A DNA stretch of 45,579 bases, taken from assembly GCA_013626165.1 (NCBI GenBank), contig NDHX01000012.1:1-45579 (forward strand), in the 5' to 3' direction. Both the position numbers and the translations under genes were made by a program. Within the stretch, counting starts at the first letter, position 1. Each line of letters starts with the position of its first letter. Origin of the DNA: a bacterium Unc6. GTDB lineage: Bacteria > Omnitrophota > Gorgyraeia > Velesiimonadales > Velesiimonadaceae. The notes below the pieces were generated by a model. It did no database searches, was not told where the DNA came from, and worked only from the letters and a program-made list of their open reading frames with translations. Positions 1 to 16,010 of the stretch are shown one piece after another.

Positions 1-366
1 TTAAAGGAGTTGGGCCAGGTCATTGTAATGGTGGGAGACGGTATTAACGATGCCCCGGCGCTGGCGGCAGCGGATGTGGGAATTGCCATGGGGGTGATCG
101 GCAGTGATATCACTGTGCAGGCCGCCAATGTGGTGATTCTAAATGATGATATCTTAAGTGTGCCGCGGATAATCGCTTTGGGGAGTAAGGCATTGTCGGT
201 GATCCGGCAGAATATCGCCTTTGCTCTGGTATTCAATACCGCAATGATAGGATTGGCATCTTACGGGATCATCAGCATGATTGCAGCGGCGGTCTTTCAT
301 CAAACAAGCTCACTTGTGGTAATACTTAACTCAATGAGATTATTGAAATGGAAAAAGAGCTTTTGA
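1..366 (+). CDS. C-terminal part of a P1B-type heavy-metal-transporting ATPase
   Basis: The reading frame is open from the first base, so this is the 3' end of a larger gene (about 121 residues seen of an expected 650-800). It carries the P-type ATPase hinge motif MVGDGINDAPALAAADVGIAMG in two parts (GDGINDAPAL and DVGIAMG), which co-ordinates Mg2+ in the P domain. Two closing membrane helices and the ending SSLVVILNSMRLL follow, typical of P1B metal pumps. The pump exports or supplies a transition metal at the cytoplasmic membrane; the metal-specifying residues lie upstream of the window. The DtxR and HMA_2 fragments downstream commonly accompany such pumps, which suggests they were once one locus. 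Confidence 0.9.
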   Translation, partial: LKELGQVIVMVGDGINDAPALAAADVGIAMGVIGSDITVQAANVVILNDDILSVPRIIALGSKALSVIRQNIAFALVFNTAMIGLASYGIISMIAAAVFHQTSSLVVILNSMRLLKWKKSF

Positions 367-472
367 TTTTTAAAAGTTAACCCTAAAGATTGTTAAAATA
401 AAATCTGCCTTGTAAAAAACAACTGCACTTGTGTAAAATTACTAAACATTAAATGCTGTGGAGGTCTGGATT

Positions 473-592
473 ATGAAAAAATCAGCAACTTTATTGTCAA
501 TATTAATGCTTGCCTTGATATTTTACGGATGCCAGAAAAAAGAGGATGTTATAAAGATTGGTATCGCAGAAGAAATTAGGGTCAAACCTTGA
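473..592 (+). pseudogene. Truncated lipoprotein, N-terminal 39 residues of a probable solute-binding protein
   Basis: ATG follows a GGAGG-like site (461-464). The peptide has a lysine start, a hydrophobic stretch and a lipobox-like YGC, then KKEDVIKIGI, the usual start of ABC-type amino-acid or anion binding lipoproteins. The frame stops after 39 residues inside an inverted repeat (575-643), so the mature domain is missing. I infer a real gene truncated by insertion or deletion at the repeat. Confidence 0.55.
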
Positions 593-643
593 AAGTAGAA
601 AGCAAATCGCTTTAAATCCTACATTCAAGGTTTAACTCTAATC
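575..643. repeat. Imperfect inverted repeat (stem-loop) at a gene break
   Basis: Arms at 581-598 (GTCAAACCTTGAAAGTAG) and 619-636 (CTACATTCAAGGTTTAAC) pair with two mismatches and the similarity continues outwards. It forms a long stem with a 20-nt loop. It ends the lipoprotein fragment and looks like a small palindromic element, not a terminator, as no T-tract follows. Confidence 0.6.
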
Positions 644-685
644 CCTTGCTTCAAAAATAAAAAATTTTAAAAATAAAAAAAGCGC

Positions 686-714
686 TTGACAAATTAGATT
701 GAATATGTTAGACT
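686..714 (+). promoter_or_regulatory. Sigma-70-type promoter of the DtxR-like remnant
   Basis: TTGACA at 686-691, a 17-bp spacer and TAGACT at 709-714. The -10 element is covered by the palindromic operator at 706-723, the geometry expected for autorepression. The next start codon is 840. Confidence 0.6.
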
Positions 715-723
715 AATCTAACA
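706..723. promoter_or_regulatory. Palindromic operator, probably for a DtxR/MntR-type metalloregulator
   Basis: TGTTAGA-CTAA-TCTAACA has perfect 7-bp arms and a 4-bp centre. It resembles the TTAG-rich boxes of the DtxR/IdeR family and lies over a -10 element, upstream of a fragment encoding a DtxR N-terminus. A copy with identical 6-bp inner arms precedes exbB (1832-1847). Confidence 0.55.
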
Positions 724-796
724 AATAAAGATGTGTCTAAATAGGGCTTACTGAAAAATGCTAAAAATTTGGATACTATATAAAACGCATTAAATA

Positions 797-825
797 GGGG
801 TCTGATGAGTTTTTCAGCAGACCCT
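797..825. repeat. REP-like palindrome, copy 1
   Basis: GGGTCTG (798-804) and CAGACCC (818-824) flank an internal CTGA/TCAG pair and a TTTTT loop. A near-identical element lies at 7911-7943, beyond the end of efp. Confidence 0.65.
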
Positions 826-839
826 AAATAATAGTTAAT

Positions 840-908
840 ATGGAAAATAAAAAGAATAAAAAGTTAAGTTCACATATGGAAGATTATTTGGAGGCTGTGG
901 TTTTGTAA
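840..908 (+). pseudogene. N-terminal fragment of a DtxR-family metal-dependent repressor
   Basis: The 22-residue peptide starts MENKKNKK and continues SSHMEDYLEAVVL, matching the first helix of DtxR/MntR proteins (usual form MEDYLEAI). The stop is reached exactly where a GGDEF-domain remnant begins in another frame, so most of the roughly 150-residue repressor is gone. The promoter and operator upstream survive. A short peptide cannot exclude chance similarity, but the DtxR-like operator beside it supports the call. Confidence 0.5.
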
Positions 909-1042
909 CTGTAAGCATTAGCGGCTGCGGACTGCCGCCTGACAGGCATGTTGACACTCTTACTGAGACGGTTTACAGCGCACTTTATGAAGCAAAAAGA
1001 AGCGGCAGAAACCGCGTAAATGTATACGGGGAGGAATTATGA
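902..1042 (+). pseudogene. C-terminal fragment of a GGDEF (diguanylate cyclase) domain
   Basis: The frame reads TVSIS near 905 and ends LYEAKRSGRNRVNVYGEEL, the standard end of a GGDEF domain (usual LYRAKRSGRNRV). It lacks the catalytic GGDEF loop and has no start codon of its own. Its stop overlaps the start of the HD-GYP gene as ATGA (1039-1042), so the two were once translationally coupled c-di-GMP synthesis and degradation genes. Confidence 0.65.
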
Positions 1043-1704
1043 AACCTGTTATTTATCTGCCGGAAATTGAGAAGCTTTTTTGCAATATTGGCCCTTGCAC
1101 TAGTGCCTGCCTCTCTATGCACCAGTTGAGCGAATCTCTCGGTAATGCCGTTGACGCGAGAGACGGACTTACTCATAACCACTCTCAACAGGTGGCGGTT
1201 ATAAGCCGTCTAATCGCCCTCGCAATGGGATTTAACACAAAACAGGCGGATATTATTCATATCACGGGACACTTGCACGACATAGGCAAGATTGGGATAC
1301 CCGACGATGTATTGAAAAAATCAGGCGTATTTACGGAACAAGACTGGAAATGGATGAAAAGACATCCTGAAATCGGGGCCAAGATTTTATCGCCTGTTAA
1401 GGTTTTTAAGTCGGACGGCGCAATATGGGAAATAGTTTTATACCACCATGAAAGGTTTGACGGCTCTGGTTATCCGTCCAGGCTCAAAGGCAGGGATATT
1501 CCGATAGGCGCAAGGATTGTAGCGGTTGCCGACACGCTTTCAGCTCTGATACAGGACAGGGCTTATAGAAAAGGAAGGAGCTTTGATGATGCGGTTGAAG
1601 AAATCCGGAGGCATTCGGACAGTCAGTTTGACCCTCTTATCGTAAAAATTTTCATAGAGATAAACGACGATATCAGGCAAGGGCTGGAGGGAATATGGTC
1701 GTAA
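1039..1704 (+). CDS. HD-GYP domain cyclic-di-GMP phosphodiesterase
   Basis: The 221-residue cytoplasmic protein is mostly one HD-GYP domain that would hydrolyse cyclic di-GMP. Visible ligands are the HD pair in HLHDIGKIGIPDDVL, the following H in KRHPEIGAKIL, HHERFDGSGYP with the GYP motif intact, and the D of AVADTLSAL. There is no sensor or membrane segment; the first 30 residues are cysteine-bearing and unassigned. The ATGA overlap with a GGDEF remnant suggests the sensory partner has been lost. The family is clear; activity is inferred from intact ligands. Confidence 0.9.
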   Translation: MKPVIYLPEIEKLFCNIGPCTSACLSMHQLSESLGNAVDARDGLTHNHSQQVAVISRLIALAMGFNTKQADIIHITGHLHDIGKIGIPDDVLKKSGVFTEQDWKWMKRHPEIGAKILSPVKVFKSDGAIWEIVLYHHERFDGSGYPSRLKGRDIPIGARIVAVADTLSALIQDRAYRKGRSFDDAVEEIRRHSDSQFDPLIVKIFIEINDDIRQGLEGIWS

Positions 1705-1784
1705 GCATAATTGACGGAAGGATCCGCATCAGGAAAGCGTGTATTAAAAACACAAAAGCAACAGAAGGCGCAGGTGTAGAATAA
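1695..1784 (+). pseudogene. Short HMA_2-like fragment
   Basis: A 29-residue frame begins inside the end of the HD-GYP gene with MVVSIIDGRIRIR. This resembles the first strand of HMA_2 proteins (usual VxSxIPGRIRIR), small proteins encoded beside P1B ATPases. It stops after 29 of the expected 80 or more residues. The assignment rests on one motif, and it may be a chance frame. Confidence 0.3.
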
Positions 1785-1831
1785 GAAAGATAAAACAAGG
1801 ACTTTAAAGAAGATAATTTTTTAATGTGAAA

Positions 1832-1847
1832 GTTAGAAATGTCTAAC
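1832..1847. promoter_or_regulatory. Operator upstream of exbB, matching the 706-723 site
   Basis: GTTAGA-AATG-TCTAAC has the same arms and centre length as the site at 706-723. It lies 38 bp before the exbB start; a TATATA at 1853-1858 could be the -10. I infer metal-dependent repression of exbB-exbD-tonB. Confidence 0.5.
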
Positions 1848-1885
1848 ATAGTTATATATCTAAAACAAATGAAAGGATATAATTT

Positions 1886-2548
1886 ATGTTGGAATTCTTT
1901 TTAAAAGGCGGCCCTTTGATGTGGCCAATTGCTTTATGCTCGGTGGTAGCCGTTACGGTTGTTTTGGAGCGGTTGTATCACTTTCACCGGGCAAAGGTTA
2001 ATGTGCCTAATTTTTTGTCCCGGATAAAAAAGTTATTGCAAGAAGATAAAATAAGCGAAGCGGAGAAATTATGCTGTGATTATCCCGGGCCTATGTCGCA
2101 TATTTTAGCTATAGGTATCCACATCCGTGCAAGGCAATATGAGGAGAAAGAGAGGATAATTGCCCAGGCAGGTTCAAGAGAATTAAGAAGGTTAGAAAAA
2201 AATTTAAGAGCCCTGGGAATCATTGCTCATATCAGCCCCCTTTTGGGACTTTTGGGTACTGTTACCGGGATGATAAGAGCTTTTATGAAGATTCAGGAAT
2301 TAGGCGGAAGGGTTGATGCTTCAGTTTTAGCCGGCGGTATCTGGGAAGCGCTTATAACCACTGCGGCAGGATTATTCGTAGCTATTCCCTCAATGTTCTT
2401 TTATCATTATTTTGAGGGAAGGGTGGATAATTTCTCTGCCCAGATGAAAGATGCGGTCGAGTCGCTAATGGAGTGGTTAGGAATTGGAAGACCCTGCGCA
2501 GAAAGAAAGAGTGAGCAGTTGAAGGAGGACGTAGAATATGGAGTTTGA
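1886..2548 (+). CDS. exbB: ExbB/TolQ-family proton channel subunit
   Basis: The 220-residue protein has the ExbB layout: a first helix at about 13-33 (MWPIALCSVVAVTVVLERL), a cytoplasmic loop, and two more helices at about 112-132 and 155-178. The conserved LLGLLGTVTGMI and GGIWEALITTAAGLFVAIPS segments line the proton path. With ExbD it turns proton flow into movement of TonB. An AAAGGA site precedes ATG, and a DtxR-like operator lies upstream. The reading frame overlaps exbD by 11 bp. TolQ is the alternative, but the tonB gene immediately downstream favours ExbB. Confidence 0.92.
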   Translation: MLEFFLKGGPLMWPIALCSVVAVTVVLERLYHFHRAKVNVPNFLSRIKKLLQEDKISEAEKLCCDYPGPMSHILAIGIHIRARQYEEKERIIAQAGSRELRRLEKNLRALGIIAHISPLLGLLGTVTGMIRAFMKIQELGGRVDASVLAGGIWEALITTAAGLFVAIPSMFFYHYFEGRVDNFSAQMKDAVESLMEWLGIGRPCAERKSEQLKEDVEYGV

Positions 2549-2966
2549 AGGACGAAAGAAGATAAGTATGCATTTAGATATTGCTCCCCTGATTGATATT
2601 GTATTTTTGTTGCTTATTTTCTTTATGCTCACCGCCAATTTTATAGTGCAATCGGGAATAGAAATAACCTTACCAACTGCAAAAACTGCCGCGCTCCAGG
2701 AAGAAGAAAATGTTAGCGTATTTATAAACCATGAAAACGAGATTTTCCTTAATGATAGAAAAATCAGCATTGATGAGTTAAAAAATGCCCTTGAGCAAAG
2801 ATTAGAAACTACTCCCAAGAAAACTGTAATTCTGAAAGCTGATGAAAAAATAGACTTAGGCTTAGCAGTCCGGGTTATGGATATTGCCAAGCAGGCAAAA
2901 GCAGAAGGGTTGGTAATTTCTACTAAGTTAGAGCAGAAGAGCACAAGTGCACAGGAACATAAGTAA
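2538..2966 (+). CDS. exbD: ExbD/TolR-family proton channel subunit
   Basis: The 142-residue protein has a short cytoplasmic start, one membrane helix (IAPLIDIVFLLLIFFML) carrying the essential aspartate, and a periplasmic domain with repeated beta strands ending in VMDIAKQAKAEGLVISTKL. It partners ExbB and TonB. The start overlaps exbB and the stop lies one base before the tonB ATG, so the three form one translationally coupled operon. Confidence 0.92.
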   Translation: MEFEGRKKISMHLDIAPLIDIVFLLLIFFMLTANFIVQSGIEITLPTAKTAALQEEENVSVFINHENEIFLNDRKISIDELKNALEQRLETTPKKTVILKADEKIDLGLAVRVMDIAKQAKAEGLVISTKLEQKSTSAQEHK

Positions 2967-2967
2967 G

Positions 2968-3654
2968 ATGGAAAATAGAGTAGTAAAGAATGCATTTCTC
3001 ATTTCTTTCTTGGGACATTTAATTCTTTTGCTCTTGCCGGGATTTAATTTAGACAAGTTTCAGCCTGGGGAACTCGAAGAAATGCCTATCCGTATAGGAA
3101 TAAAAACGAGCTCACTTCTGCCCGAAATAGAGGAGATAAGATTGCCAGAGCCTGAGCCAGGGCCTGAGCCAGAGCCGGAACCAGAGCCTGAACCAGAGCC
3201 CGAACTTGAACTTGAATCCGAAAAAGAGATAGAAAAAATAATAGTAGAAGCTCCAGAGCCGCAGCCGCCTGTCGAGATATCAAGCGTGAATAAAGAGTCG
3301 GGATTAATCCCTGCAGCGCCTATAGCCTCAAAACCGTCAATGCCGTCCGCTTCAGCAGGCACAGGCGCGGATATTGATAAATCCGTAATTATAAGGGCAT
3401 TTATAGACAAGATTGAATCGATGAAGCATTATCCTTATATTGCCCGCCGAAGGGGAATAGAGGGAGCAGTCCTTATACTGGTGCATTTAGACAAGACAGG
3501 CGAGCTCAAAGATATCGTATTAAAGAAGTCTTCCGGTTATGAGATTTTGGACATAAGCGCGGTTGAGCTTATAAAAAAGGCGTGTCCTTTCAGACACGGC
3601 TACAATGCGGGGTTAAAGATGGAAATACCGATAACCTATAAACTCTTGAGGTGA
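2968..3654 (+). CDS. tonB: TonB energy-transducing protein
   Basis: The protein of 228 residues has an N-terminal anchor helix (NAFLISFLGHLILLLLPGF), a Pro-Glu rich periplasmic spacer (about 55-100, repeated EP dipeptides) and a C-terminal TonB domain (SMKHYPYIARRRGIEGAVL, then ISAVELIKKACPF). It carries energy from ExbBD to outer-membrane receptors. I chose the ATG at 2968, one base after the exbD stop; an upstream in-frame ATG at 2947 lies inside exbD. No TonB-dependent receptor is encoded in the window, so its partner must be elsewhere. Confidence 0.93.
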   Translation: MENRVVKNAFLISFLGHLILLLLPGFNLDKFQPGELEEMPIRIGIKTSSLLPEIEEIRLPEPEPGPEPEPEPEPEPEPELELESEKEIEKIIVEAPEPQPPVEISSVNKESGLIPAAPIASKPSMPSASAGTGADIDKSVIIRAFIDKIESMKHYPYIARRRGIEGAVLILVHLDKTGELKDIVLKKSSGYEILDISAVELIKKACPFRHGYNAGLKMEIPITYKLLR

Positions 3655-3712
3655 AGGGTATGAAACAATCATGTTTGGAAAAAACACAAAAGGGAATAAA
3701 AATCTCCCCTAA

Positions 3713-3762
3713 CCCCTCTTTTTCAAAGAGGGGAACAGTTATAGCCCCCTTAGCAAAGGGGG
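3713..3762. repeat. Tandem pair of C/G-rich stem-loops
   Basis: CCCCTCTTT-TTC-AAAGAGGGG (3713-3733) is followed by CCCCCTT-AGCA-AAGGGGG (3745-3762). Both stems are perfect. They lie between tonB and the Com-like gene and may end or protect the tonB transcript, though no T-tract follows. Confidence 0.65.
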
Positions 3763-3780
3763 GAAAGGGGGGATTTTCAG

Positions 3781-3942
3781 ATGAAAATATTCGGCGCTCA
3801 ATGTGTATATACAAAGGAAATAAGGTGCAAAAAGTGCAAAAGACTGCTTATGAAAGGCGAGATATTAGCAATAGAGATAAAATGCCCTAAATGCGGATAC
3901 ATACAGACAATAGGAAAGGAGGTGATAGTGACCGAAAAATAG
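3781..3942 (+). CDS. Small Com-like zinc-ribbon protein
   Basis: The 53-residue protein has two CxxC pairs (RCKKCKRLLMKGEI and KCPKCGYIQTI), the pattern of the Com family of phage Mu, a small zinc-binding translational activator. A G-rich site ends 8 nt before ATG. No other phage gene is nearby, so it is either a prophage relic or an independently used zinc ribbon. The fold is well supported by the spacing of cysteines; the target RNA or partner is unknown. Confidence 0.7.
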   Translation: MKIFGAQCVYTKEIRCKKCKRLLMKGEILAIEIKCPKCGYIQTIGKEVIVTEK

Positions 3943-3953
3943 ACATAGAAAGT

Positions 3954-4032
3954 TGTCATTGCGAGTGAAACGAAGCAATCTCAAGCTTTTACAGAAAGAT
4001 TGCCGCGAACCCTTCGGGTTCTCGCAATGACA
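3954..4032. repeat. Dispersed-type inverted repeat (TGTCATTGCGAG family)
   Basis: TGTCATTGCGAG (3954-3965) and CTCGCAATGACA (4021-4032) are perfect 12-bp inverted arms, with an internal GAACCCTTCGGGTTC stem. This repeat type is common in intergenic DNA of many bacteria. A further stem AAGCCC/GGGCTT lies at 4049-4065. No gene was found between 3943 and 4265. Confidence 0.75.
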
Positions 4033-4102
4033 GGCAATTCCTTTGTTTAAGCCCCCCGAGGGCTTGAAAAATGCCAGAGGACTCCGAGTCCCTAAAATAG
4101 GC

Positions 4103-4231
4103 TGTCACGAAAGTCGTTCCAGCCTATGATTACACAGATTTTAGAAAAGATTACACAGATAATACCGACGATGTTTTTAATCTGCGTAATCTGTTTTTTA
4201 ATCAATGTAATCAAGGGCGGTACTTTTGTGA
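4103..4231. repeat. Composite repeat with GATTACACAGATT arms, copy 1
   Basis: GATTACACAGATT (from 4128) occurs twice in direct order and then as AATCTGCGTAATC and AATCAATGTAATC in inverse order, ending at 4212. Outer near-inverted words GTCACGAAAGT (about 4103) and ACTTTTGTGAC (4221-4231) bracket it. A second copy lies at 31829-31974. Confidence 0.65.
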
Positions 4232-4265
4232 CGCCCTATCCCTGAAAATAAAGGAGGAGGAAAAA

Positions 4266-5582
4266 ATGTTTAGAAGGATGATTTTTGTTTTGGCTGCGAT
4301 GTTAGTTATATCAGGTTTTTCTACTGCACAGGCAGGGGAAGGCGATGCTATTCTGAAAATCCTGTTGAAGAAGGGGGTTATCACCGAACAGGAATACAAA
4401 GCAATTAAAGAAGAGTTGAAAGCGGAGCCTCAAAAGACGCAGATGAAGGAAGAGATAAAAAAAGAGGTTATGGAAGAAGTGGCAAAGAAAAAAGATGAAG
4501 GACTTCCTGAATGGACTAAGAGGATAAAACTTTCAGGGCTTATAGAAGGAGATTACCACTGGAAAAAATACAGGGATATTTCCGATAAGAACTCTGATTC
4601 TACATCTGACCTCTATATAGGCACTGTTGAGCTCGGGATGGAAACTAAAGTTGCGGACTGGATTTCAGCTAATATAGTCTTTCTTGCCGAGGATATAGGC
4701 AAAAATGGTGAAGCAAATGTAACCGTTGATGAGGCGACCATAACACTTCAAAAAGAGGACTTCCCGCTTTATCTCGTCATTGGAAAGAGGACGCAGCCCT
4801 TTGGTGTTTTTGAAAACCACCTCGTGACAGACCCGATGACGCAAGATGCCTACGAGACCAATAGAGTAGGAGTAACGGTCGGAGCAACCGGGCCGTTAGG
4901 ACTTGATGTATCGGCAACCATCTATAAAGGCGAGGAGCAGATGGATAAACTCATCGACGACTCAGAACTGTTTGAAGCAGCCAGAGTCGGCGACCCCGGA
5001 GATGACGTGGGATCCTATATCTTGTCCGCATCTATTTCTCCCGAAGATCATCTGAAGTTTTTCGCCAGCTATATATCGGAGCCGGGCAGGGGAAAGAGGA
5101 ACAGCACGGCAAGCTTCGGTCTCAGCACAGCCATACCCGGCATCGAGGGTTTCAGGCTTGACGGTGAATATATGAAGGCTCTTCAGAGGGAGAGATATCT
5201 GGGTCTCGGTGAGGCGTTCAAAGAGGGAGTCTTCTCCGTAACCGCGTCATATGTATTCAATACGAGGGAGAGACGTAAGGATTTGGGAGGAGCAACATTA
5301 GAAGAGCGGAAGACCCATCTCCTCGAAGAACCCTTGGAACTCACCTTCAGGTATGAGCGTTTTGACGACGATGAACTGGCAGAGAAGACTTCTTCATGGT
5401 CGGCGAAAAACAGGTACAGTCTGGGCGTGAGATACCAGTTTTACAAGGATGAAGAGAAAGGCTTGACGGCATTTGTCGGAACAGAATACAGATATACGAA
5501 TTACAGGCTTCACAGCAGCCTGACAAACACAAGGGCGGATAATAATAAGGAGATGTTCCTGAAACTCGGGCTGAGTTTCTAA
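4266..5582 (+). CDS. LbtU-like outer-membrane porin
   Basis: The 438-residue protein has a signal peptide (cleavage after about STAQA, residue 23), a short helical segment resembling SHOCT (ILKILLKKGVITEQEYKAI), a charged coiled coil (about 48-80), then alternating beta strands ending in an aromatic residue (LKLGLSF), as outer-membrane barrels do. Segments such as YLVIGKRTQPFGVFENHLVTDP match the LbtU siderophore-porin family by my reading. A strong AAAGGAGGAGG site precedes ATG. LbtU of Legionella imports legiobactin without TonB; here the gene follows tonB. The substrate is unknown. Confidence 0.75.
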   Translation: MFRRMIFVLAAMLVISGFSTAQAGEGDAILKILLKKGVITEQEYKAIKEELKAEPQKTQMKEEIKKEVMEEVAKKKDEGLPEWTKRIKLSGLIEGDYHWKKYRDISDKNSDSTSDLYIGTVELGMETKVADWISANIVFLAEDIGKNGEANVTVDEATITLQKEDFPLYLVIGKRTQPFGVFENHLVTDPMTQDAYETNRVGVTVGATGPLGLDVSATIYKGEEQMDKLIDDSELFEAARVGDPGDDVGSYILSASISPEDHLKFFASYISEPGRGKRNSTASFGLSTAIPGIEGFRLDGEYMKALQRERYLGLGEAFKEGVFSVTASYVFNTRERRKDLGGATLEERKTHLLEEPLELTFRYERFDDDELAEKTSSWSAKNRYSLGVRYQFYKDEEKGLTAFVGTEYRYTNYRLHSSLTNTRADNNKEMFLKLGLSF

Positions 5583-5590
5583 AGAGCATT

Positions 5591-5662
5591 ATGAAAGAAA
5601 CACGCAAAAAAGAGCTATGGCGCCAGCTTGGGCTTTTAAACATAGGTGAAAGTCAGATATAA
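5591..5662 (+). pseudogene. Short truncated frame after the porin, AtpZ-like start
   Basis: A 23-residue frame (MKETRKKELWRQLGLLNIG, then four more residues) begins 8 bp after the porin stop. The start resembles that of small AtpZ/AtpI membrane proteins, but the hydrophobic part is missing. It marks another gene break between the porin and the next module. Weak call. Confidence 0.3.
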
Positions 5663-5686
5663 TGAACATTATATCAGGAGGATAAA

Positions 5687-6670
5687 ATGAAAAAATGGAT
5701 ATTGGTACCAATAAGTATAGTGGCCTTGGTGGCTATTGGCGTTGGTGTGATTATTCGGGCAGTGGCGCCGCAGGTGCCACCGCCACTAGCTGGACATATT
5801 CATATGACCGATGGTGGTGGTTATCGAGAGATAATGGACACTTTTGTTAGGAATCAGTTTGATCTGCCGGTGAGTATTTATATCACCGGATCATCAGGGG
5901 ATTTGCGTGATTATATGAGAGTAGCTCTTGCCAAAGGGAGCATTGGGCGAGGAACACTTTTCTCTTATAATCATCTAGAGGTTCACCGACAGTTTGAAGC
6001 GGCACGTCCCTTTGTTGCCGAGTTCCCAGGACGTTTCCCGGTGCGAGAGGAATTTGCTGAGCTGGTTGATCCAAAAGGAGAGTTGCATGTAGTCTGGGTT
6101 GATGCTATTGTTATCATCTACAACCCCGGCTTGATATCTCGTGAGAAAGTTCCTTCCACCTTGGGCGAACTGGCCAGGTTTGATCAAAAGATAGGTGTTC
6201 CAACTACCGGCTGCATTGGAACCTGGGGGAAGATGGCACTTTATTATCACTTAGGAGAAGAAAATTTTAAAAAACTAATGGCCAATGCCGCAGTGAAAAG
6301 TAGCATAGGTGATGTAACAACAGCTGTATGGGATGGTACTGTGGCAGTGGGCATTTCTACCCTAATGGATGTAATGGTAAGAGATGGTGATGTTGGAGTG
6401 ATTTGGCCTGAGGATGGAGCGATTGCTAAGCCAGCCCTTATGGTTATCCCCGATAACCCAACAGATTATCATCTCCGGCTGGCGGACATTATTATGAGTC
6501 CAGAAGCAGCCGAGCTGTTTACGAGAGAGTTCAATATGGCTTCAGCGCTTCCAGATGGACCTGTGCCGGCGATAGTAGATGAAAACGATTTCAACTTTAT
6601 CTTTATCCCCGCTCAGGCGATAATCTGTGAAATAACTGAGAAAAAGGTAAATCGGATTGTTGGGGATTAA
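5687..6670 (+). CDS. Membrane-anchored periplasmic solute-binding protein (FbpA/class II type)
   Basis: The 327-residue protein has one N-terminal helix (WILVPISIVALVAIGVGVII) without a clear cleavage site or lipobox, so it is probably anchored. A two-lobed binding fold follows: VDAIVIIYNPGLI and KIGVPTTGCIGTWGKMALYY are typical of ferric-iron and related anion binding proteins, and IIMSPEAAELFTREFN is the usual late helix. AGGAGG sits 7 bp before ATG. No permease or ATPase gene is adjacent; instead a polyferredoxin gene follows after 23 bp. The ligand (Fe3+, an oxyanion or other) cannot be read from sequence. Confidence 0.7.
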   Translation: MKKWILVPISIVALVAIGVGVIIRAVAPQVPPPLAGHIHMTDGGGYREIMDTFVRNQFDLPVSIYITGSSGDLRDYMRVALAKGSIGRGTLFSYNHLEVHRQFEAARPFVAEFPGRFPVREEFAELVDPKGELHVVWVDAIVIIYNPGLISREKVPSTLGELARFDQKIGVPTTGCIGTWGKMALYYHLGEENFKKLMANAAVKSSIGDVTTAVWDGTVAVGISTLMDVMVRDGDVGVIWPEDGAIAKPALMVIPDNPTDYHLRLADIIMSPEAAELFTREFNMASALPDGPVPAIVDENDFNFIFIPAQAIICEITEKKVNRIVGD

Positions 6671-6693
6671 AGAAGGGTAGTTAGGGGCGGGGA

Positions 6694-7593
6694 ATGGACA
6701 GTCAAGTGCGTAGGTCTAAACTTAAATACTTGCTCATGGCGCTGCAAATATTTTTTTTCCTTGTTGTCGGCCTTATTCTTTACCGCAAGAGAGAATTACT
6801 CCATCGCTTTTGCCGTTATCCGTTCCCCTTTATTATGTGTCCTGTATGTGATTACCCCTGTTTTTTTCAGGGTTATCGCTTGCAGGAGATAATAAAATAT
6901 GGGGCAGTGGTGACGGGTTTGATAGGTGGTCGCATTTTTTGCGGCGTCGCTTGTCCGTTCGGTGCTGTTCAGGATTGGTTTCATTCTTTAAAGAGGCGAG
7001 TGCTTTCCCTAAAGGTGTTCCGCTCTAACAGACCTGACAGTAGGCGGCACCTGCGCATTCTTAAAAGCGGTCTACGGCTTCTTGACAGTGGTTTGCGGTT
7101 TTTGAAATATCCCTTTTTCTTGGTGGTGTTTACTTATTCCCTGATTCGCTTTGCGCTAGCCTTCGACTTTATGCCAGAATGGGGACTTGTTCCAGCGATG
7201 ACATTTACGATGCAGGTTAGAGAATTAGCCGGGGATGGACACATTAATTTTTGGTATTTTTCTCTCAGTTATGTTAATTTTGTGATATTTTTTCTTATCA
7301 TTGTTTTTGGTGCCGGACTGGTTTTGCATCGCCCCTGGTGCAAATATTTATGTCCTGTTGGTTTGCTTTTTGCTTTTTTAAATAAAATATCATTTTTAAA
7401 AATAAGCTTAGAAAGAAAAGGTTGTACGGGATGCAGAAAGTGCCTGGAAACCTGCACAACCGGGAAGAAATTTAGCGAACTGGAACAGGGTTTTGTTTCT
7501 GTGGAATGTGTTCGTTGCTATGACTGTGTGTTAACCTGTCCTGAAGGGGTGGTAAATCTTAAGGCCGGTGGCAGAGAGATTAGGTTGCAATAA
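6694..7593 (+). CDS. NapH/CcoG-like membrane polyferredoxin
   Basis: The 299-residue membrane protein has about five helices. Cysteine motifs CPVCDYPC, CGVACPFG and CKYLCPVG lie at helix ends (Fer4_5 type), and two CxxCxxCxxxC clusters close the protein (CTGCRKCLETC and CVRCYDCVLTCP). Such proteins carry electrons from quinols across the membrane. The gene lies 23 bp after the binding-protein gene, so they are probably co-transcribed; a role in reducing the captured ligand is inference. The C-terminal ferredoxin is predicted cytoplasmic as in NapH. Confidence 0.85.
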   Translation: MDSQVRRSKLKYLLMALQIFFFLVVGLILYRKRELLHRFCRYPFPFIMCPVCDYPCFFQGYRLQEIIKYGAVVTGLIGGRIFCGVACPFGAVQDWFHSLKRRVLSLKVFRSNRPDSRRHLRILKSGLRLLDSGLRFLKYPFFLVVFTYSLIRFALAFDFMPEWGLVPAMTFTMQVRELAGDGHINFWYFSLSYVNFVIFFLIIVFGAGLVLHRPWCKYLCPVGLLFAFLNKISFLKISLERKGCTGCRKCLETCTTGKKFSELEQGFVSVECVRCYDCVLTCPEGVVNLKAGGREIRLQ

Positions 7594-7951
7594 TTTTTAC
7601 CCCGTAAAACAATGAGATGCTTAACCTTTTAAAACAAGAATCTGTAGCGAATAATTTTTAAGATATTGAAATAAATGTCCGAAATCCGAAGTCTAAATTT
7701 CAAAAACACAAGTTCAACGGGAATTGGAAGCGCTCAGACGGGATGATACTGTGAGGTAAGTTACGATATTCTGCTGCTTTTTTTTAAGGCAGACCACTAC
7801 CTTGCTCCGTTCGTAAGACACGAGAAGTATGATACTTATGCACAAGTGCCCGCCCCGGTTACAGCAGAAATCTTGCATATGACAGAATAGATAAACCGGT
7901 AGGTCTGACATAGGGTCTGATAGGAGTTTTTCAGCAGACCCCATATAAACT
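7594..7951. other. Intergenic region between converging genes
   Basis: I see no gene here. It holds a CTGC...GCAG stem around a T8 run (near 7769-7790), a perfect AAGTAT-G-ATACTT palindrome (near 7830) and the REP-like copy at 7911-7943. Open frames present are short and have no recognisable motif. Confidence 0.5.
7911..7943. repeat. REP-like palindrome, copy 2
   Basis: GGGTCTG (7913-7919) and CAGACCC (7935-7941) with a GTTTTTCAG loop, matching 797-825. It lies 8 bp beyond the efp stop codon and could stabilise or end that transcript. Confidence 0.65.
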
Positions 7952-8509
7952 CTATACTCTGCTTACATATGTTCCTGTTCTTGTATCTACTTTTATTTTA
8001 TCTCCTTTTTCTACAAACAGAGGAACCTGAACAACTGCGCCTGATTCCAATTTTGCGGATTTTGTTCCGCCTTTTGCAGTATCACCCCTGACACCCGGTT
8101 CTGTTTCTGTAACAACAAGTTCAACAAACATCGGAGGCGACACCTCAAGAAGCGCACCATCGCAAAACGATGCACTGATATTCATATTTTCTATTATATA
8201 ATTGGCTGCTCTTTTAACCTCTTCACTACTCAATTCAACCTGTTCAAATGTTTGCTGATCCATAAAATAAAATGTGTCCCCATCTTTATAAAGATATTGA
8301 AGTTCCTTTTCCTGTATATATGCATCCTCAAACTTGGTGCCTCCGTCAAAAGTTCTTTCCAATACGAAACCTGTTTTTATTATCCTTAACTTTGTTCTTA
8401 CAAATGCAGCACCTTTTCCGGGTTTTACATGTTGAAATTCAATGAGCCTTACAACCTTACCTTCTAACTTAAATGTAAGTCCGTTTTTAAACTGTTCCGT
8501 TGATACCAT
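7952..8509 (-). CDS. efp: Translation elongation factor P
   Basis: The 185-residue protein has the three EF-P barrels: KOW-like start (MVSTEQFKNGLTFKLEGKVV), the OB central domain and the C-terminal domain ending KIKVDTRTGTYVSRV. EF-P rescues ribosomes stalled at polyproline. The tip loop VKPGKGAAF keeps Lys32, the residue modified in many species. I chose the ATG at 8509, preceded by GAGGGA, over an upstream ATG (8563) that would add 18 unrelated residues. It follows the M24 peptidase gene on the same strand, a common pairing. Confidence 0.95.
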   Translation of the reverse strand: MVSTEQFKNGLTFKLEGKVVRLIEFQHVKPGKGAAFVRTKLRIIKTGFVLERTFDGGTKFEDAYIQEKELQYLYKDGDTFYFMDQQTFEQVELSSEEVKRAANYIIENMNISASFCDGALLEVSPPMFVELVVTETEPGVRGDTAKGGTKSAKLESGAVVQVPLFVEKGDKIKVDTRTGTYVSRV

Positions 8510-8662
8510 TTCTCCCTCTTTTCTCCTGCTCGTAGACTGCCGCTTGTATTTCGTATACCGCATTACGTCGTCCGTAACCTGTATTTCGTTTTTTTAACAG
8601 TATACGGAAATGATATACGGCTTTTACCAGTCACCCGTTATATTATGTTGTGCAACAGACTC

Positions 8663-9706
8663 TCAGCTTAATACCTCACATCCGCTTTCATGGACAAGAA
8701 CCATTTGTTCATACCTTACCCCGCCTACACCTTTTATATATATTGCAGGTTCTATTGTGAGCACCATCCCCTCTTTTGCAATATCTTTTGAACCCGAGCC
8801 AACATCAGGAGCCTCATGAACATCTATGCCAACTCCGTGTCCTAAACTATGAATAAAGTTTTTGCCAAACCCCTTTTTTTCAATATACCCTCTTGCAATA
8901 CTATCTATGTCTTTTAATTGGACGCCAGCCCGTATTTTTTCTATTACAATCTTTGATGCTGTTTCAACAATGCTTTTAATTTTTGTAAATTTAAGCCCCC
9001 TGGCCCCCGATGTGTTAGTATATGTTCTTGTAATATCAGAACAATATCCTTTTAACCTGCATCCGCAATCTATAAGAACAATATCTTTTTCTATATTTAT
9101 ATCCTGCGGTGTTGCATGCGGATAGGATGACCTTTTACCGCTTGCAACAATTATCGGAAATGAAACAGCCTCTGCGCCTTTTTCTCTTATTTTTTTTTCT
9201 ATCTCCCATGCAAGGTGTCTTTCGGTAATCTTGGACCAGTCTAATTTAATAATGTCTTGAATTGCAATTTTTGTTAATTCTATTGAATCTTTTATACTCC
9301 GTATCTCCTGCTCTGACTTACAGATCCTTAAAGACTCCGGAATACCACTTGCATCAATGAACATAGAATTCGGAACACAGGTCTCCCATTTTTTAATCTG
9401 TGAACAGTAAGTTTGTGAAAGGTCATATCCTATTTTACTTTTCAAACCGATGAAATTTTGTAAATACTTTTTAAAAGTAGCCCACCGCACCTCAATGACC
9501 TTTGAGTCTTTAATAACAGGCCTTGCCTCTTCAATGTATCTTGCATCAACAAAAAAGAAAGAACTTTCTTTTGAAATAAGAAGAACCGCCTCTTCACAAC
9601 GGAAACCTGTAAGATAAAATATATTTGAGGGGTTTGTAGTTATAAGAAAATCCAATCCCCTGTGTCTTAATATATCCTGTATATTATTCATCCTTTGTTT
9701 AAACAT
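8663..9706 (-). CDS. M24 metallopeptidase (Xaa-Pro aminopeptidase/PepQ family)
   Basis: The 347-residue cytoplasmic enzyme has a creatinase N-domain and a pita-bread catalytic domain. All five metal ligands are visible: the two Asp (VLIDCGCRLKGYCSDITRTY), His (HSLGHGVGIDVHEAP), Glu (VLTIEPAIYI) and Glu (VRYEQMV). It removes residues before proline. It is 154 bp upstream of efp on the same strand; the polyproline theme they share may be coincidental. Xaa-Pro dipeptidase is the alternative. Confidence 0.92.
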   Translation of the reverse strand: MFKQRMNNIQDILRHRGLDFLITTNPSNIFYLTGFRCEEAVLLISKESSFFFVDARYIEEARPVIKDSKVIEVRWATFKKYLQNFIGLKSKIGYDLSQTYCSQIKKWETCVPNSMFIDASGIPESLRICKSEQEIRSIKDSIELTKIAIQDIIKLDWSKITERHLAWEIEKKIREKGAEAVSFPIIVASGKRSSYPHATPQDINIEKDIVLIDCGCRLKGYCSDITRTYTNTSGARGLKFTKIKSIVETASKIVIEKIRAGVQLKDIDSIARGYIEKKGFGKNFIHSLGHGVGIDVHEAPDVGSGSKDIAKEGMVLTIEPAIYIKGVGGVRYEQMVLVHESGCEVLS

Positions 9707-9720
9707 ATTGTTTTTTCAAT

Positions 9721-11535
9721 TTATCTTTTCAATCTCTCAATTTGTTTTAGGTAATATTCCGCTTCTTCATATCTTTTAAGAGATATTAAAACATCTGCCA
9801 GGGCTTGATAGTATCTTGCTTTTGTAGGATACCTTTTTATTGCAGTTTTAAATTTTTCTATTGCCTTTTCAATTCTTCTTTCATCCCAGTGGCTGGTCTT
9901 TAAATACATCCTACCCAGTGCAAAATGGTAAAATGGCATATACGGGTCAAGACGGACAGCCTGCTTATATGCCTTTAGTGCCTGTTCTGCCAGGGTTCTG
10001 TCAGCTCTTTTTTCAGTCTGGACACCAATATCAAACTGCCTTTCGTAAATCTGTGCAAGAGCAAAATGATAATCAGCCCTTAAAGGGTCATAAGATATCG
10101 CAATTTTAATCCTTGATATCGCAAGATTAAAATCCTGCAGTTTTAAAGACCTGTCAATAGGATTAATAACTGTTTCATATATAATCTCACCCAACATCGG
10201 ACGGATAAGTATAAATATCAAAAATATAATAATACTGAGACAGCCCAAAAAATTTATTATATCCTTTGGCTTTGTATTTATTGTAAATGTTTTTCTTTCT
10301 TCTAACCTTGCGAAAATCCCTAAAAGTAAAAATACAAGAAATACAATTCCCGGGACATAAAGGTTAAAATCACCCATACCATGAAATATAAATGCAAATA
10401 TTGAAGTGTAAAGACCTATTCCTAATATTCCATTTTTTTTTGCAATGCTGAACCCTTTAAAAAGAAAAACGGCCCATATCAATGAAAACATTACAAGTCC
10501 GACAATGCCACATTCTGAGGCGACCTGAACAAAACTATTATGTGCAAGTTGGGTTTCTTCCCCTTCTAATGATTTATAGGTTGGAAACACAGCACCGAAT
10601 GTTCCGGGACCAAATCCAAGTATCGGACGATCTTTAAACATCAAAAACCCGACCCTCCAGTATTCAATTCGTACCTGTGCAGACCTGTAATATCTATAAA
10701 CCCCTGGCATATCTGAGGGTTTTTTCCATAACAGAAAACCAGATAGAATAATAAAAACCACACTTAAAAAAACTAATATCCATACCTTAAATTTAAGTAT
10801 CTGTTTCCAGCCCATTAAAATGAAAAATAGCAACAGGGATATGGGTGCAACAATCCAACCTCCTTTTGAAAATGTAAGAAGAAGTACATACACAGAAATA
10901 AGAAGAATGAATATCCACAGTACTTTGAACCTTTTAAAAAAACTATCAAAACTAAATACAGCAATCCCCACAACAGGCAGCATCAAAACAAGATACCCCG
11001 CAAATGCAGGAGCATGTACAAATGTTGAAAAGACCCTGTTCTGCATCAGCCTTGCCATAAGGTTAACATTTTGCAGTAGTTCTTTATGGTGCAGCCTTAC
11101 ATATTCACGGGTTATTTCAAAACCCCAGAAGTATTGATATACACCATAAATAGATACTATAAAAAGAACAACCATTGATATTGTAAGCAGTGTCTTCCTT
11201 GCATTTTCATTATCACTTATCTGAACAACCGCAAAATAAAGAATAATATACTGAAACCACTGATATATAAAAGTAATACTTCTGTGAATATTTACCGTAA
11301 AAATAGTACAGAGCAGAAGAGACAAAAAAAATCCGATTAAGATAAAATCAAGAAAAGTTCTTCTTATTATTATTCTGCCATTCCAGACCTGTGGAAGAAT
11401 AATAAGGGCAAAAACGGTAATTACACCTATCTGAAATATACTATTAGACCACGCATATGTTAGACCACAGATAAGGGGTCTGACAAATAGAAGAATACAC
11501 AGGATAAGAAATCCTAATCTTTTACCTTCTGACAT
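9721..11535 (-). CDS. O-antigen ligase/polymerase-like membrane protein with C-terminal TPRs
   Basis: About 604 residues. Some ten membrane helices make a Wzy_C/WaaL domain; the large loop has RPILGFGPGTFG and AHNSFVQVASECGIVG, where the His is the conserved catalytic-loop residue. From about 470 onward come TPR-type helices (DYHFALAQIYERQFD, FYHFALGRMYLKTSHWDE, ARYYQALADVLISLKRY). The protein would transfer or polymerise a lipid-linked glycan on the outer face of the inner membrane. I chose ATG 11535; an in-frame start at 11562 lies deeper in the preceding gene. It overlaps that gene by 14 bp. Confidence 0.85.
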   Translation of the reverse strand: MSEGKRLGFLILCILLFVRPLICGLTYAWSNSIFQIGVITVFALIILPQVWNGRIIIRRTFLDFILIGFFLSLLLCTIFTVNIHRSITFIYQWFQYIILYFAVVQISDNENARKTLLTISMVVLFIVSIYGVYQYFWGFEITREYVRLHHKELLQNVNLMARLMQNRVFSTFVHAPAFAGYLVLMLPVVGIAVFSFDSFFKRFKVLWIFILLISVYVLLLTFSKGGWIVAPISLLLFFILMGWKQILKFKVWILVFLSVVFIILSGFLLWKKPSDMPGVYRYYRSAQVRIEYWRVGFLMFKDRPILGFGPGTFGAVFPTYKSLEGEETQLAHNSFVQVASECGIVGLVMFSLIWAVFLFKGFSIAKKNGILGIGLYTSIFAFIFHGMGDFNLYVPGIVFLVFLLLGIFARLEERKTFTINTKPKDIINFLGCLSIIIFLIFILIRPMLGEIIYETVINPIDRSLKLQDFNLAISRIKIAISYDPLRADYHFALAQIYERQFDIGVQTEKRADRTLAEQALKAYKQAVRLDPYMPFYHFALGRMYLKTSHWDERRIEKAIEKFKTAIKRYPTKARYYQALADVLISLKRYEEAEYYLKQIERLKR

Positions 11536-12589
11536 TATTCCCTGCTCTTTCAAGAAGAACAATTATTGCAATAATTGCAAGTGCCTGAATAAATATCCAG
11601 TATCCACCCCACAGGGTAAGGTCTTTTAACACAATAGCACCTGCTCCTAAACAAAGTGTGGCAAGATATATGAATAAAACTGCTTGTTTCTGTGTCATTC
11701 CAAGACTGGTAAGTCTGTGTGAAAAATGTTTTTTATCTGCTGCAAGGATACTTCTTCGTTCTTTTAATCTTATCCACATCACAGAAAATGTATCAAATAT
11801 GGGAACTGCAAAAAGAAGAAGTGGCATAACAATAACAATCTTACTCCTGTCATCATATCTATAATATGTGGCAATAAGAGATATTGAAGCAAGAACAAGC
11901 CCTATAAAAAGACTTCCGGCATCTCCCATAAATATCTTTGCTGGAGGAAAATTAAAAATAAGAAAGCCTGCTGTTATTCCCATCATTAAAGCAAGTATCA
12001 GTGATACAAAAAACTGACCTCCTCTGAAACAGGAAACAAAAAACATACAACTTATCACAAACGCCACCCCTGCTGAAAGCCCATCCATATTATCAAGAAG
12101 ATTGAAAGAGTTTGTAATTCCGACAATCCAGGCAATGGTAAGTATAAGACTTAAAATCGGAGCATCTATAAAAAGAGACATCCTTATTCCACCCCACCAG
12201 AGTATAAAAGCAACAAGTATTTCTATGAGAAGTTTTTTTCTTGAATTTAAGGGATGCAGATCATCCCACAGTCCCAGAAGAAAAACAGTTGTTGCTGCAA
12301 GCATTACTATCCTTAAAACAGGTATAACTGTTTTAAGCCTTGCATAATGTGAAAACAAGAAGTCTGCAGTATCAGAGGGCAAATAAAAAAACTGCCGATT
12401 TAAAACCTCAAATAAAAACAATCCCAAAATTATTGTGACGATGAATGAAAAAAACATCGCAAACCCACCTGTTCTCGGCATAGGTGCGGTGTGTATCTTT
12501 CTTTGTGAAGGATGATCTACAATATTAAACACGTGGGAAATAAATCTTGCCAAAGGAATAAACAGGATACACAACACGAGGCTTAACAA
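11522..12589 (-). CDS. WecA/TagO/MraY-family polyprenyl-phosphate sugar-1-phosphate transferase
   Basis: About 355 residues with some ten helices and the family motifs NSFNLLDNMDGLSAG and FPPAKIFMGDAGSLFIG, whose Asp residues bind Mg2+; the RKIHTAPMPRTGGFAM loop marks the WecA-like branch. It starts glycan synthesis on undecaprenyl phosphate. The start is uncertain: TTG at 12589 is given, but the frame stays open upstream (ending ...LISGCVF) and overlaps the end of the preceding gene, so a non-ATG start near 12620 is possible. Confidence 0.88.
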   Translation of the reverse strand: MLSLVLCILFIPLARFISHVFNIVDHPSQRKIHTAPMPRTGGFAMFFSFIVTIILGLFLFEVLNRQFFYLPSDTADFLFSHYARLKTVIPVLRIVMLAATTVFLLGLWDDLHPLNSRKKLLIEILVAFILWWGGIRMSLFIDAPILSLILTIAWIVGITNSFNLLDNMDGLSAGVAFVISCMFFVSCFRGGQFFVSLILALMMGITAGFLIFNFPPAKIFMGDAGSLFIGLVLASISLIATYYRYDDRSKIVIVMPLLLFAVPIFDTFSVMWIRLKERRSILAADKKHFSHRLTSLGMTQKQAVLFIYLATLCLGAGAIVLKDLTLWGGYWIFIQALAIIAIIVLLERAGNNVRR

Positions 12590-12606
12590 AAATACACATC
12601 CGCTTA

Positions 12607-13809
12607 TTAAAAGCCAGAATATTTCATTAATATCTTCCCCCTTTTTAAGTCGTTTATCAAACCCATATACTCCTGTTCTATGCTGTCTACCATTGTTTTT
12701 ATATCAAACCTTTCTCTTACAAATTCCCTTCCCTGTTGACCAATCCGTCTTCTTAAATCCGGGTTTTTCAAGAGTTCTATTATTTTAATGCGAAGCCCGT
12801 TATAATCTTTTGCTTGGACAAGATAACCGGTAAATCCATCTTTTACGACCTCACATGCTCCATCTATATCAAATGCAATAACCGGCTTGCCACAGGCAAG
12901 TGCCTGCGGAATTGTTCTTGGAAGTCCTTCCCTTAGCGATGTATGAATAAGTATATCCATCGCACCAATAAGTTGTGGTATTTCAGACGGAGGAACAAGC
13001 CCTGTCCATATAAATCTCTTTTCTATGCCCTGCTTTTGTGTCTTTTTTTCAAGACTGCTTTTTAAATATCCTCCACCTACAAAAAGAAAATATGTATTCG
13101 GAAAACTTTTTATAATCTCTTTTGCACACATAAGGATATAATTATGCCCCTTTAAGCGGACAAGCCTTGCAATCTTTCCTATTACAAAAGCATCCTCTGG
13201 GATGCCTATCTTTTTTCTTATACTTTTTGAATCTTCATTAATTTTTGAAAATTCATCCATCTCAATTCCGCTGTATATTGTTACAATCTTATCATGTTTT
13301 GCAATTTTAGCACTTATTGCTTTATCTTTCATAACATCTCCGACAGTTATTATCTTACTTGTAAATCTTGCCGTGTACCTCTCAAGGCTTAAATATAAAA
13401 GATTAAGCAAAGGGTTTTCAAACCTATGGAAGGCAAGTCCATGTATTGTGTGAGCAATAATCGGAATACCACACCTTTTTGCAGAGATCCTTCCTAAAAC
13501 ACCAGCCTTTGAAGAATGCGTATGAACTATATCAAAACCACCATTTTTTATCAAATCTGTTATTTCTCTATATGCTATTAAATCATAAACAGGATTTATC
13601 TCTCTTACTAAATGCGGAATTATTTTTATATCCACATTATTTTTATATGCCCTTTCCAAAAGACTCCCCTCACTTCCGGATTGAGGTCCTGTTGCAAGAA
13701 CAGATTTATACCCTTTCTTCATTAAACCCTCAACCGTAAAAAGTGTATTTTCCTGCGCTCCCCCTACAATAAGACGGGTAATAATGTGAAGTATTTTTAG
13801 TTGTTTCAT
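12607..13809 (-). CDS. GT4-family glycosyltransferase
   Basis: The 400-residue GT-B enzyme has an N-lobe beginning KILHIITRLIVGGAQENTL and a C-lobe with GKIARLVRLKGHNYI, HTSLREGLPRTIPQALACGKPVIAF, which includes the nucleotide-sugar binding E-x7-E region. It probably adds a sugar to the lipid-linked glycan. It is followed directly by the WecA-like gene. Donor and acceptor cannot be read from sequence. Confidence 0.9.
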   Translation of the reverse strand: MKQLKILHIITRLIVGGAQENTLFTVEGLMKKGYKSVLATGPQSGSEGSLLERAYKNNVDIKIIPHLVREINPVYDLIAYREITDLIKNGGFDIVHTHSSKAGVLGRISAKRCGIPIIAHTIHGLAFHRFENPLLNLLYLSLERYTARFTSKIITVGDVMKDKAISAKIAKHDKIVTIYSGIEMDEFSKINEDSKSIRKKIGIPEDAFVIGKIARLVRLKGHNYILMCAKEIIKSFPNTYFLFVGGGYLKSSLEKKTQKQGIEKRFIWTGLVPPSEIPQLIGAMDILIHTSLREGLPRTIPQALACGKPVIAFDIDGACEVVKDGFTGYLVQAKDYNGLRIKIIELLKNPDLRRRIGQQGREFVRERFDIKTMVDSIEQEYMGLINDLKRGKILMKYSGF

Positions 13810-13833
13810 AACTACGAAAAAATACCTGTCTAT

Positions 13834-13850
13834 CCCCTGACAAGTCGGGG
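13834..13850. repeat. Short GC-rich palindrome
   Basis: CCCCTGACAAGTCGGGG, a hairpin with one bulge, between the GT4 and GT39-like genes. It is one of several G+C-rich palindromic words in AT-rich spacers here (see also 23845-23858 and the infC leader). Confidence 0.45.
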
Positions 13851-13873
13851 CAGGTTGGGAATCTTAAACAAAT

Positions 13874-15889: not shown

Positions 15890-15960
15890 ATTTTATTCTA
15901 ACGCCTTTAAAAAATTCAAAAATCCCCCAACAAGTTAAGGGCAAACTCGTGAAACTTGGG

Positions 15961-16010
15961 ATGGCAACTGGTCCTCTGGCAACTGGTGCTCTGGTGCTCT
16001 GGTGCTAAAG
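15961..16010. repeat. Short direct repeats (CTCTGGTGCT / GGCAACTGGT)
   Basis: GGCAACTGGT occurs twice and CTGGTGCT three times in about 45 bp, in the 139-bp spacer downstream of the helicase. The related words CAGTTGCC and GAGCACCAG recur in other spacers (near 22665, 26022 and 30655). Confidence 0.5.

Follow-up and report, generated by a model that had tools for sequence, protein, structure and literature searches.

Gene pair and upstream region

The window, i.e. the whole stretch of 45,579 nucleotides that was analysed, contains two adjacent genes, P1 and P2, which encode a binding protein and a membrane polyferredoxin of 327 and 299 residues, respectively. Both are on the same strand and are separated by 23 bp (Table 1). 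No ABC permease or ATPase gene is found near the pair in positions 1–16000 of the window, and genes of the TonB system and a siderophore-type porin adjoin it, both as described in an earlier reading of these letters alone (the sequence-only reading). The porin scores 102.8 bits against the LbtU siderophore-porin profile (cut-off 90), with an alignment limited to residues 85–226.

Table 1. Positions of genes and sequence features at the P1–P2 locus (window coordinates)
Feature	Position	Strand	Remarks
Direct repeat, left copy	807–831	+	possible island boundary
exbB (1886–2548), exbD (2538–2966), tonB (2947–3654)	1886–3654	+	upstream context
Outer-membrane porin, LbtU-like	4266–5582	+	upstream context
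Sigma-70-like promoter, TTTAAA-17-TATAAT	5635–5663	+	10/12 positions, joint best in 1600–8700; consensus match only
Perfect 9-2-9 inverted repeat, GATATAATG-AA-CATTATATC, operator-like	5656–5675	.	overlaps the -10-like hexamer, abuts the P1 ribosome-binding site
Ribosome-binding site of P1, AGGAGG	5676–5681	+	from sequence
P1, membrane-anchored SBP_bac_6 (PF13343) binding protein	5687–6670	+	homologues L009:2001-3077, L013:1420-2457
P2, NapH-type four-TM polyferredoxin, 16 Cys in five motifs	6694–7593	+	homologue L010:1465-2358(-)
Direct repeat, right copy	7924–7948	+	23/25 identical; base composition shifts at about the same place

When the 104-bp intergenic region ahead of P1 was shuffled 5000 times, a 9-2-9 repeat of the kind seen there arose in nine cases. 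The repeat has a two-nucleotide centre, unlike the 7-1-7 form of Fur sites. A search of the window against Rfam returned no match. Elsewhere in the window, two exact inverted repeats of the form GTTAGA-N4-TCTAAC occur at 707–722, before a truncated ORF at 840 whose start resembles a DtxR-family regulator, and at 1832–1847, upstream of exbB. A DtxR-type regulon that extends to P1 through such boxes was considered and rejected, as the P1 repeat differs from them and, with two mismatches allowed, the number of boxes does not exceed that expected by chance. The intergenic region ahead of the porin gene (3690–4040) is rich in repeat-like hairpins, e.g. those of the CCCCTCTTTTTCAAAGAGGGG and TGCGAGTGAAACGAAGCAATCTC types.

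The composition of this end of the window is atypical. Third-position GC is ~0.44 across 1 to 7.6 kb, compared to 0.29 in 12 core genes further on. The per-codon fit to the codon usage of the core genes is -1.29 for P1 and -1.26 for P2, outside the range of the core genes themselves (-0.89 to -1.06), and exbB, tonB and the porin gene fit similarly poorly. The atypical segment falls between the two copies of a 25-bp direct repeat, no further copy of which was found in the window, and is read here as an island that was probably acquired; alternatively, the repeat could represent a dispersed element. Far downstream, a gene at 37654–38862 on the reverse strand resembles, by eye, the HcyBio/DUF39 homocysteine biosynthesis proteins, which are common in methanogens and sulfate reducers.

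The binding protein P1

P1 matches the SBP_bac_6 family (PF13343) over residues 121–304 with 55.6 bits (E = 7e-15), above the curated cut-off of 24.6. Its single hydrophobic stretch is N-terminal (residues 5–23). Because no lipobox or signal-peptidase site was seen in P1, the protein should remain anchored in the membrane, and the anchor is retained in all three copies known, namely that in the window and two from an archaeon described below. The sequence-only reading of P1 as a membrane-anchored, FbpA-like binding protein is thus borne out.

Ferric iron is held in FbpA-type proteins by characteristic Tyr and His ligands. A phmmer search gave no significant solved relative of P1, and none could be aligned for mapping of these ligands. 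A structure prediction made from two sequences had a mean pLDDT of 40, too low for reading ligand residues. Among the three close members, in which slightly more than half of the positions are common to all, each of the seven His and both Cys residues of P1 are invariant, which is suggestive of metal capture and should be taken as a clue only. No redox cofactor motif could be recognised in P1.

The membrane polyferredoxin P2

P2 matches Fer4_5 twice, in addition to 4Fe-4S ferredoxin profiles. The best NCBIfam match is TIGR02163 (NapH/MauN) with 74.2 bits against a cut-off of 213, and NF007013 gives 66.2 bits against 234. As these scores are far below the cut-offs, P2 is a relative rather than a member of these families. 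It does have the makeup of the NapH-type membrane module, with four transmembrane segments, two CX3CP motifs and C-terminal 4Fe-4S motifs. The 16 Cys residues fall into five motifs, the number given in the sequence-only reading: a C-x8-C-x2-C-x3-C motif (C40/C49/C52/C56), the two CX3CP motifs (C83/C87 and C216/C220), and two ferredoxin-type four-Cys motifs (244–254 and 272–282). Four hydrophobic segments are strong, and a weak fifth call at 219–237 overlaps the second CX3CP. The loop between the second and third segments is very basic. The topology most consistent with that of NapH would place both termini inside and the C40/C49/C52/C56 loop outside.

This four-Cys loop is nearly identical in the archaeal homologue of P2, where it reads CRYPFPFI[M/L]CPVCDYPCFF. 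The same homologue is missing several Cys residues from its C-terminal ferredoxin motifs, and its last cytosolic Fe-S motifs look degenerate, which may reflect either an assembly error or a change or loss of function. A short NapH-like membrane protein elsewhere in the host genome (contig C2, L006:1243-2907), encoded directly after a radical-SAM (AmrS-like) gene, has a loop of the same C-x8-C-x2-C-x3-C spacing, so the loop is not unique to P2.

Distribution of P1 and P2

Among 343 genomes searched for both proteins, near full-length relatives of P1 and P2 were found only in the host genome and in that of ANME-1-LC (G295), a Methanophagales metagenome-assembled genome reported from the Lost City vent (PMC9576274). 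ANME-1-LC carries two copies of P1 (69% and 64% identity) and one of P2 (52%). These are unlinked and located on three contigs (C66, C148 and C23). Adjacency of P1 and P2 was found only in the window. The circumstance that the sequence-only reading named as refuting it, a pairing unique to this contig, thus applies to gene order but not to co-occurrence.

Neither 58 relatives nor 284 further genomes of the host phylum contained P1, the sole match being a weak one to a different type of binding protein. P1 was likewise missing from the other 57 genomes of the archaeal class, where matches to P2 were partial and weak. None of the 284 host-phylum genomes had a near full-length homologue of P2. 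More generally NapH-like matches occur in 113 of 285 genomes of the phylum, the best of them scoring 63 bits compared to 609 for P2 itself. None of the loci fetched for such distant NapH-like genes, from either the host phylum or the archaeal class, had a binding-protein ORF within its flanks of ~1.5 kb. A scan of the GTDB genome collection gave a single relative of P1, the ANME-1-LC copy in L009 (76% identical over the query segment); because the scan relied on exact short peptide patterns of a single sequence, it may have overlooked more distant ones. No relative of P1 was found in viral contigs (queried with the single protein and with an alignment), plasmids or phages. P2 had no match in viral contigs and, in plasmids, only ordinary NapH-type relatives with 24–27% identity among the matches listed.

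The ANME-1-LC copies are taken as real archaeal genes since their neighbours include archaeal-type SecD, ZPR1, HerA-like and FtsZ-like genes, and contamination of these contigs is not favoured. At the nucleotide level, P1 of the window is 72% and 68% identical to the archaeal copies, which are 75% identical to each other. These values suggest that P1 was duplicated in the archaeon after its split from the P1 of the window.

If P1 and P2 were distributed independently, the chance that both would fall in the same two of 343 genomes is ~2e-5, a figure that treats the genomes themselves as independent. As the genes are unlinked in ANME-1-LC, this co-occurrence speaks for joint retention more than for linkage; joint transfer followed by rearrangement is compatible with the statistic. 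The 23-bp gap, the common upstream region and the presence of both genes in one unrelated genome, even though unlinked there, support the view that P1 and P2 behave as a unit.

Genomic context of the relatives

The neighbours of P1 relatives provide hints as to its ligand. The first ANME-1-LC copy (L009) points away from a pair of genes for a GTPase and an ABC-type ATPase, with a helix-turn-helix gene in between. When a profile built from the three P1 sequences was run against 394 genomes of the ANME-1-LC phylum, six remote binding-protein relatives were identified in five genomes (two in G679 and one each in G385, G393, G403 and G640). All six are adjoined by a GTPase of the CobW/HypB/UreG type (PF02492), a family some members of which are chaperones for nickel, cobalt or zinc.

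In the Halobacteriota, clusters of this kind (L032, L033, L034, L069 and L070) consist of an SBP_bac_6 protein, a Cys-rich CobW/HypB/UreG-type GTPase and a soluble ABC-type ATPase. The binding proteins of L032–L034 are apparently cytosolic, as neither a signal nor an anchor is evident from their listed ORFs. In some genomes the cluster is located near Peripla_BP_2 or SsuABC-like transporters. The other circumstance named as refuting the sequence-only reading, that homologues of P1 normally belong to ABC operons, does not apply in its usual sense: remote relatives adjoin an ABC-type ATPase, which is soluble and accompanied by a GTPase, with no cognate permease.

A gene for a His/Cys-rich membrane protein of 214 residues (L014:9288-9932) starts 86 bp downstream of the second ANME-1-LC copy (L014:8162-9202, contig C148); the protein has no Pfam or NCBIfam match. 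At all seven loci read in the class (L017–L023), relatives of this protein (200–220 residues) are divergent from a NikR-like gene, which matches NikR profiles at one of the seven. From this position beside nikR, the family may be considered a candidate nickel transporter of ANME-class archaea. The regions upstream of the two archaeal P1 genes (L009:1891-1950 and L013:1372-1425) each contain two TAAYTTTNTTAGGTT boxes 29 bp apart, and this common element indicates that the two genes are probably co-regulated.

Both the GTPase and the 214-residue protein are absent from the host genome, so they serve as hints to the ligand and not as parts of a host system. Taken as hints, these neighbourhoods would favour metal handling of the nickel/cobalt type over ferric iron.

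Possible function and alternatives

P1 and P2 are known families in a new combination, an unusual gene pair that was probably transferred. We tentatively propose, as a possibility that falls short of even odds, that they form a laterally transferred cassette through which a metal or metal cofactor is captured at the cell surface in a redox-coupled manner. P1, tethered to the inner membrane on its outer side, would bind the ion or the metal-containing cofactor, and P2 would pass electrons across the membrane onto the captured ligand. The reduced ligand would then be freed, or imported by another transporter. The two ferredoxin motifs, the two CX3CP motifs and the outward C40/C49/C52/C56 loop could together provide an electron path from inside to outside. 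NapH/NosR/RdhC membrane modules connect the membrane with periplasmic enzymes by electron transfer (PMC5928378), and by analogy a route from P2 to P1 is reasonable. That P1 and P2 interact, that electrons flow in this direction and that the ligand is of the nickel/cobalt type instead of ferric iron are, like the topology of P2, predictions. Uptake of nickel and cobalt normally proceeds without reduction, so a NapH-like partner would fit iron, cobalamin, copper or disulfide chemistry at least equally well.

It is doubtful that P1 is instead an orphan binding protein that serves an ABC importer encoded elsewhere, with P2 an unrelated redox protein of the same island. Several importers with PF00528 permeases are present in the host genome, including a MalFG-like pair with no evident binding-protein gene in the 3.5 kb fetched, and the equally atypical codon usage of the genes from exbB to the porin means that the segment may be an assortment of acquired genes. 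However, the permeases recognised there, as classified from sequence, look like two Pst (phosphate) systems and MalFG-like (sugar), SsuABC-like and Tup-like (tungstate) systems, and no FbpB/PotB-like or orphan-compatible permease was recognised among the PF00528 matches. Retention of the anchor in every copy of P1 also argues against this arrangement, as does the joint recurrence of P1 and P2 in a single distant genome, the other 341 searched for both having no such pair.

The sequence-only reading had offered periplasmic capture of ferric iron or another ligand with electron delivery from the membrane. The general form of this reductive-capture module survives in our proposal; the ferric ligand and the TonB/porin framing do not. 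A version in which the porin and TonB deliver Fe(III) or a ferric chelate to P1, and reduction by P2 yields Fe(II) that a Feo-type transporter takes up, is unlikely. It draws on the FbpA-like fold family of P1 and on the same-strand position of exbBD-tonB and a porin that passes the LbtU cut-off. NapH-type proteins are also known in other iron systems, e.g. the membrane polyferredoxin-like FtrD of FtrABCD. Nevertheless, both proteins also occur in an archaeon, which has neither outer membrane nor TonB, and the hints there are nickel/cobalt-type factors. Moreover, a promoter-like region and an operator-like repeat precede P1 itself, and the repeat is not of the Fur form. Because the archaeon with the same proteins has no outer membrane, the TonB/porin neighbourhood is probably incidental, and exbB, exbD and tonB are probably not part of the module.

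An outward reductase, in which P1 would bind an organic or inorganic electron acceptor without uptake and P2 would supply electrons from quinol or ferredoxin, is improbable: NapH/NosR/RdhC modules do serve periplasmic reductases (PMC5928378), and P1 is anchored beside P2 with its predicted outward four-Cys loop, but P1 is from a family of ligand-binding proteins, no redox cofactor motif could be recognised in it, and its homologues adjoin metal-handling genes.

The most specific form of the capture proposal is itself rather unlikely to be right in full. In it, P1 and P2 would make up a permease-less reductive device that acquires a metal or metal cofactor by means of an Fe-S or thiol relay facing outward. 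The device would have passed between archaeon and bacterium, possibly in hydrothermal or serpentinite habitats, and would be linked to nickel/cobalt and not to iron. If the proposed capture does operate, it would constitute a route of metal acquisition that works by electron delivery and not by an ABC pump, and that is common to two domains of life through transfer. This would bear on how, where conditions are strongly reducing, methanogens and their neighbours gain the nickel and iron bound in minerals and tight chelates. Methanogens take up nickel during the reductive dissolution of nickelian pyrite by a mechanism that is unknown (PMC10617489). Should the mechanism be wrong, there would still be a clear case of paired gene transfer involving an ANME-1 archaeon and a bacterium.

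Comparison with known systems

The NikR-associated membrane protein of ~214 residues, found in the ANME-1 class, shares with the locus only its position after a P1 homologue in ANME-1-LC (contig C148), and the host is without it. The binding proteins of the Halobacteriota clusters of SBP_bac_6, GTPase and ATPase genes (L032–L034) are remote homologues of P1 (19–24% identity), and the first ANME-1-LC copy of P1 is beside the same GTPase/ATPase pair. Unlike P1, these proteins have no evident signal or anchor, and the host is without the GTPase.

Importers of the FbpABC type use a binding protein of the same family as P1 (SBP_bac_6/PF13343). The P1–P2 pair differs from them in that counterparts of FbpB and FbpC are missing and the anchor of P1 is predicted to be permanent. 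The ferrous-iron system FtrABCD (PMC11966278) is similar in that metal-binding protein(s) of the periplasm work together with a membrane protein and no ABC transporter. That membrane protein, FtrD, is polyferredoxin-like. However, the FTR1 permease FtrC, the P19-type FtrA and the cupredoxin FtrB were not recognised among ORFs of at least 90 residues in positions 1–16000 of the window, and the binding protein P1 is of the SBP_bac_6 family.

The NapH/NosR/RdhC (PceC) module resembles P2 in having four transmembrane segments and two CX3CP motifs, and NapH and NosR also have the two C-terminal 4Fe-4S motifs (PMC5928378). P2 is set apart from this module by its score (74 bits compared to a cut-off of 213) and by the extra outward C-x8-C-x2-C-x3-C loop. 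The partners differ as well: those of NapH, NosR and RdhC are NapG/NapA, NosZ and a dehalogenase, respectively, whereas that of P2 is a binding protein.
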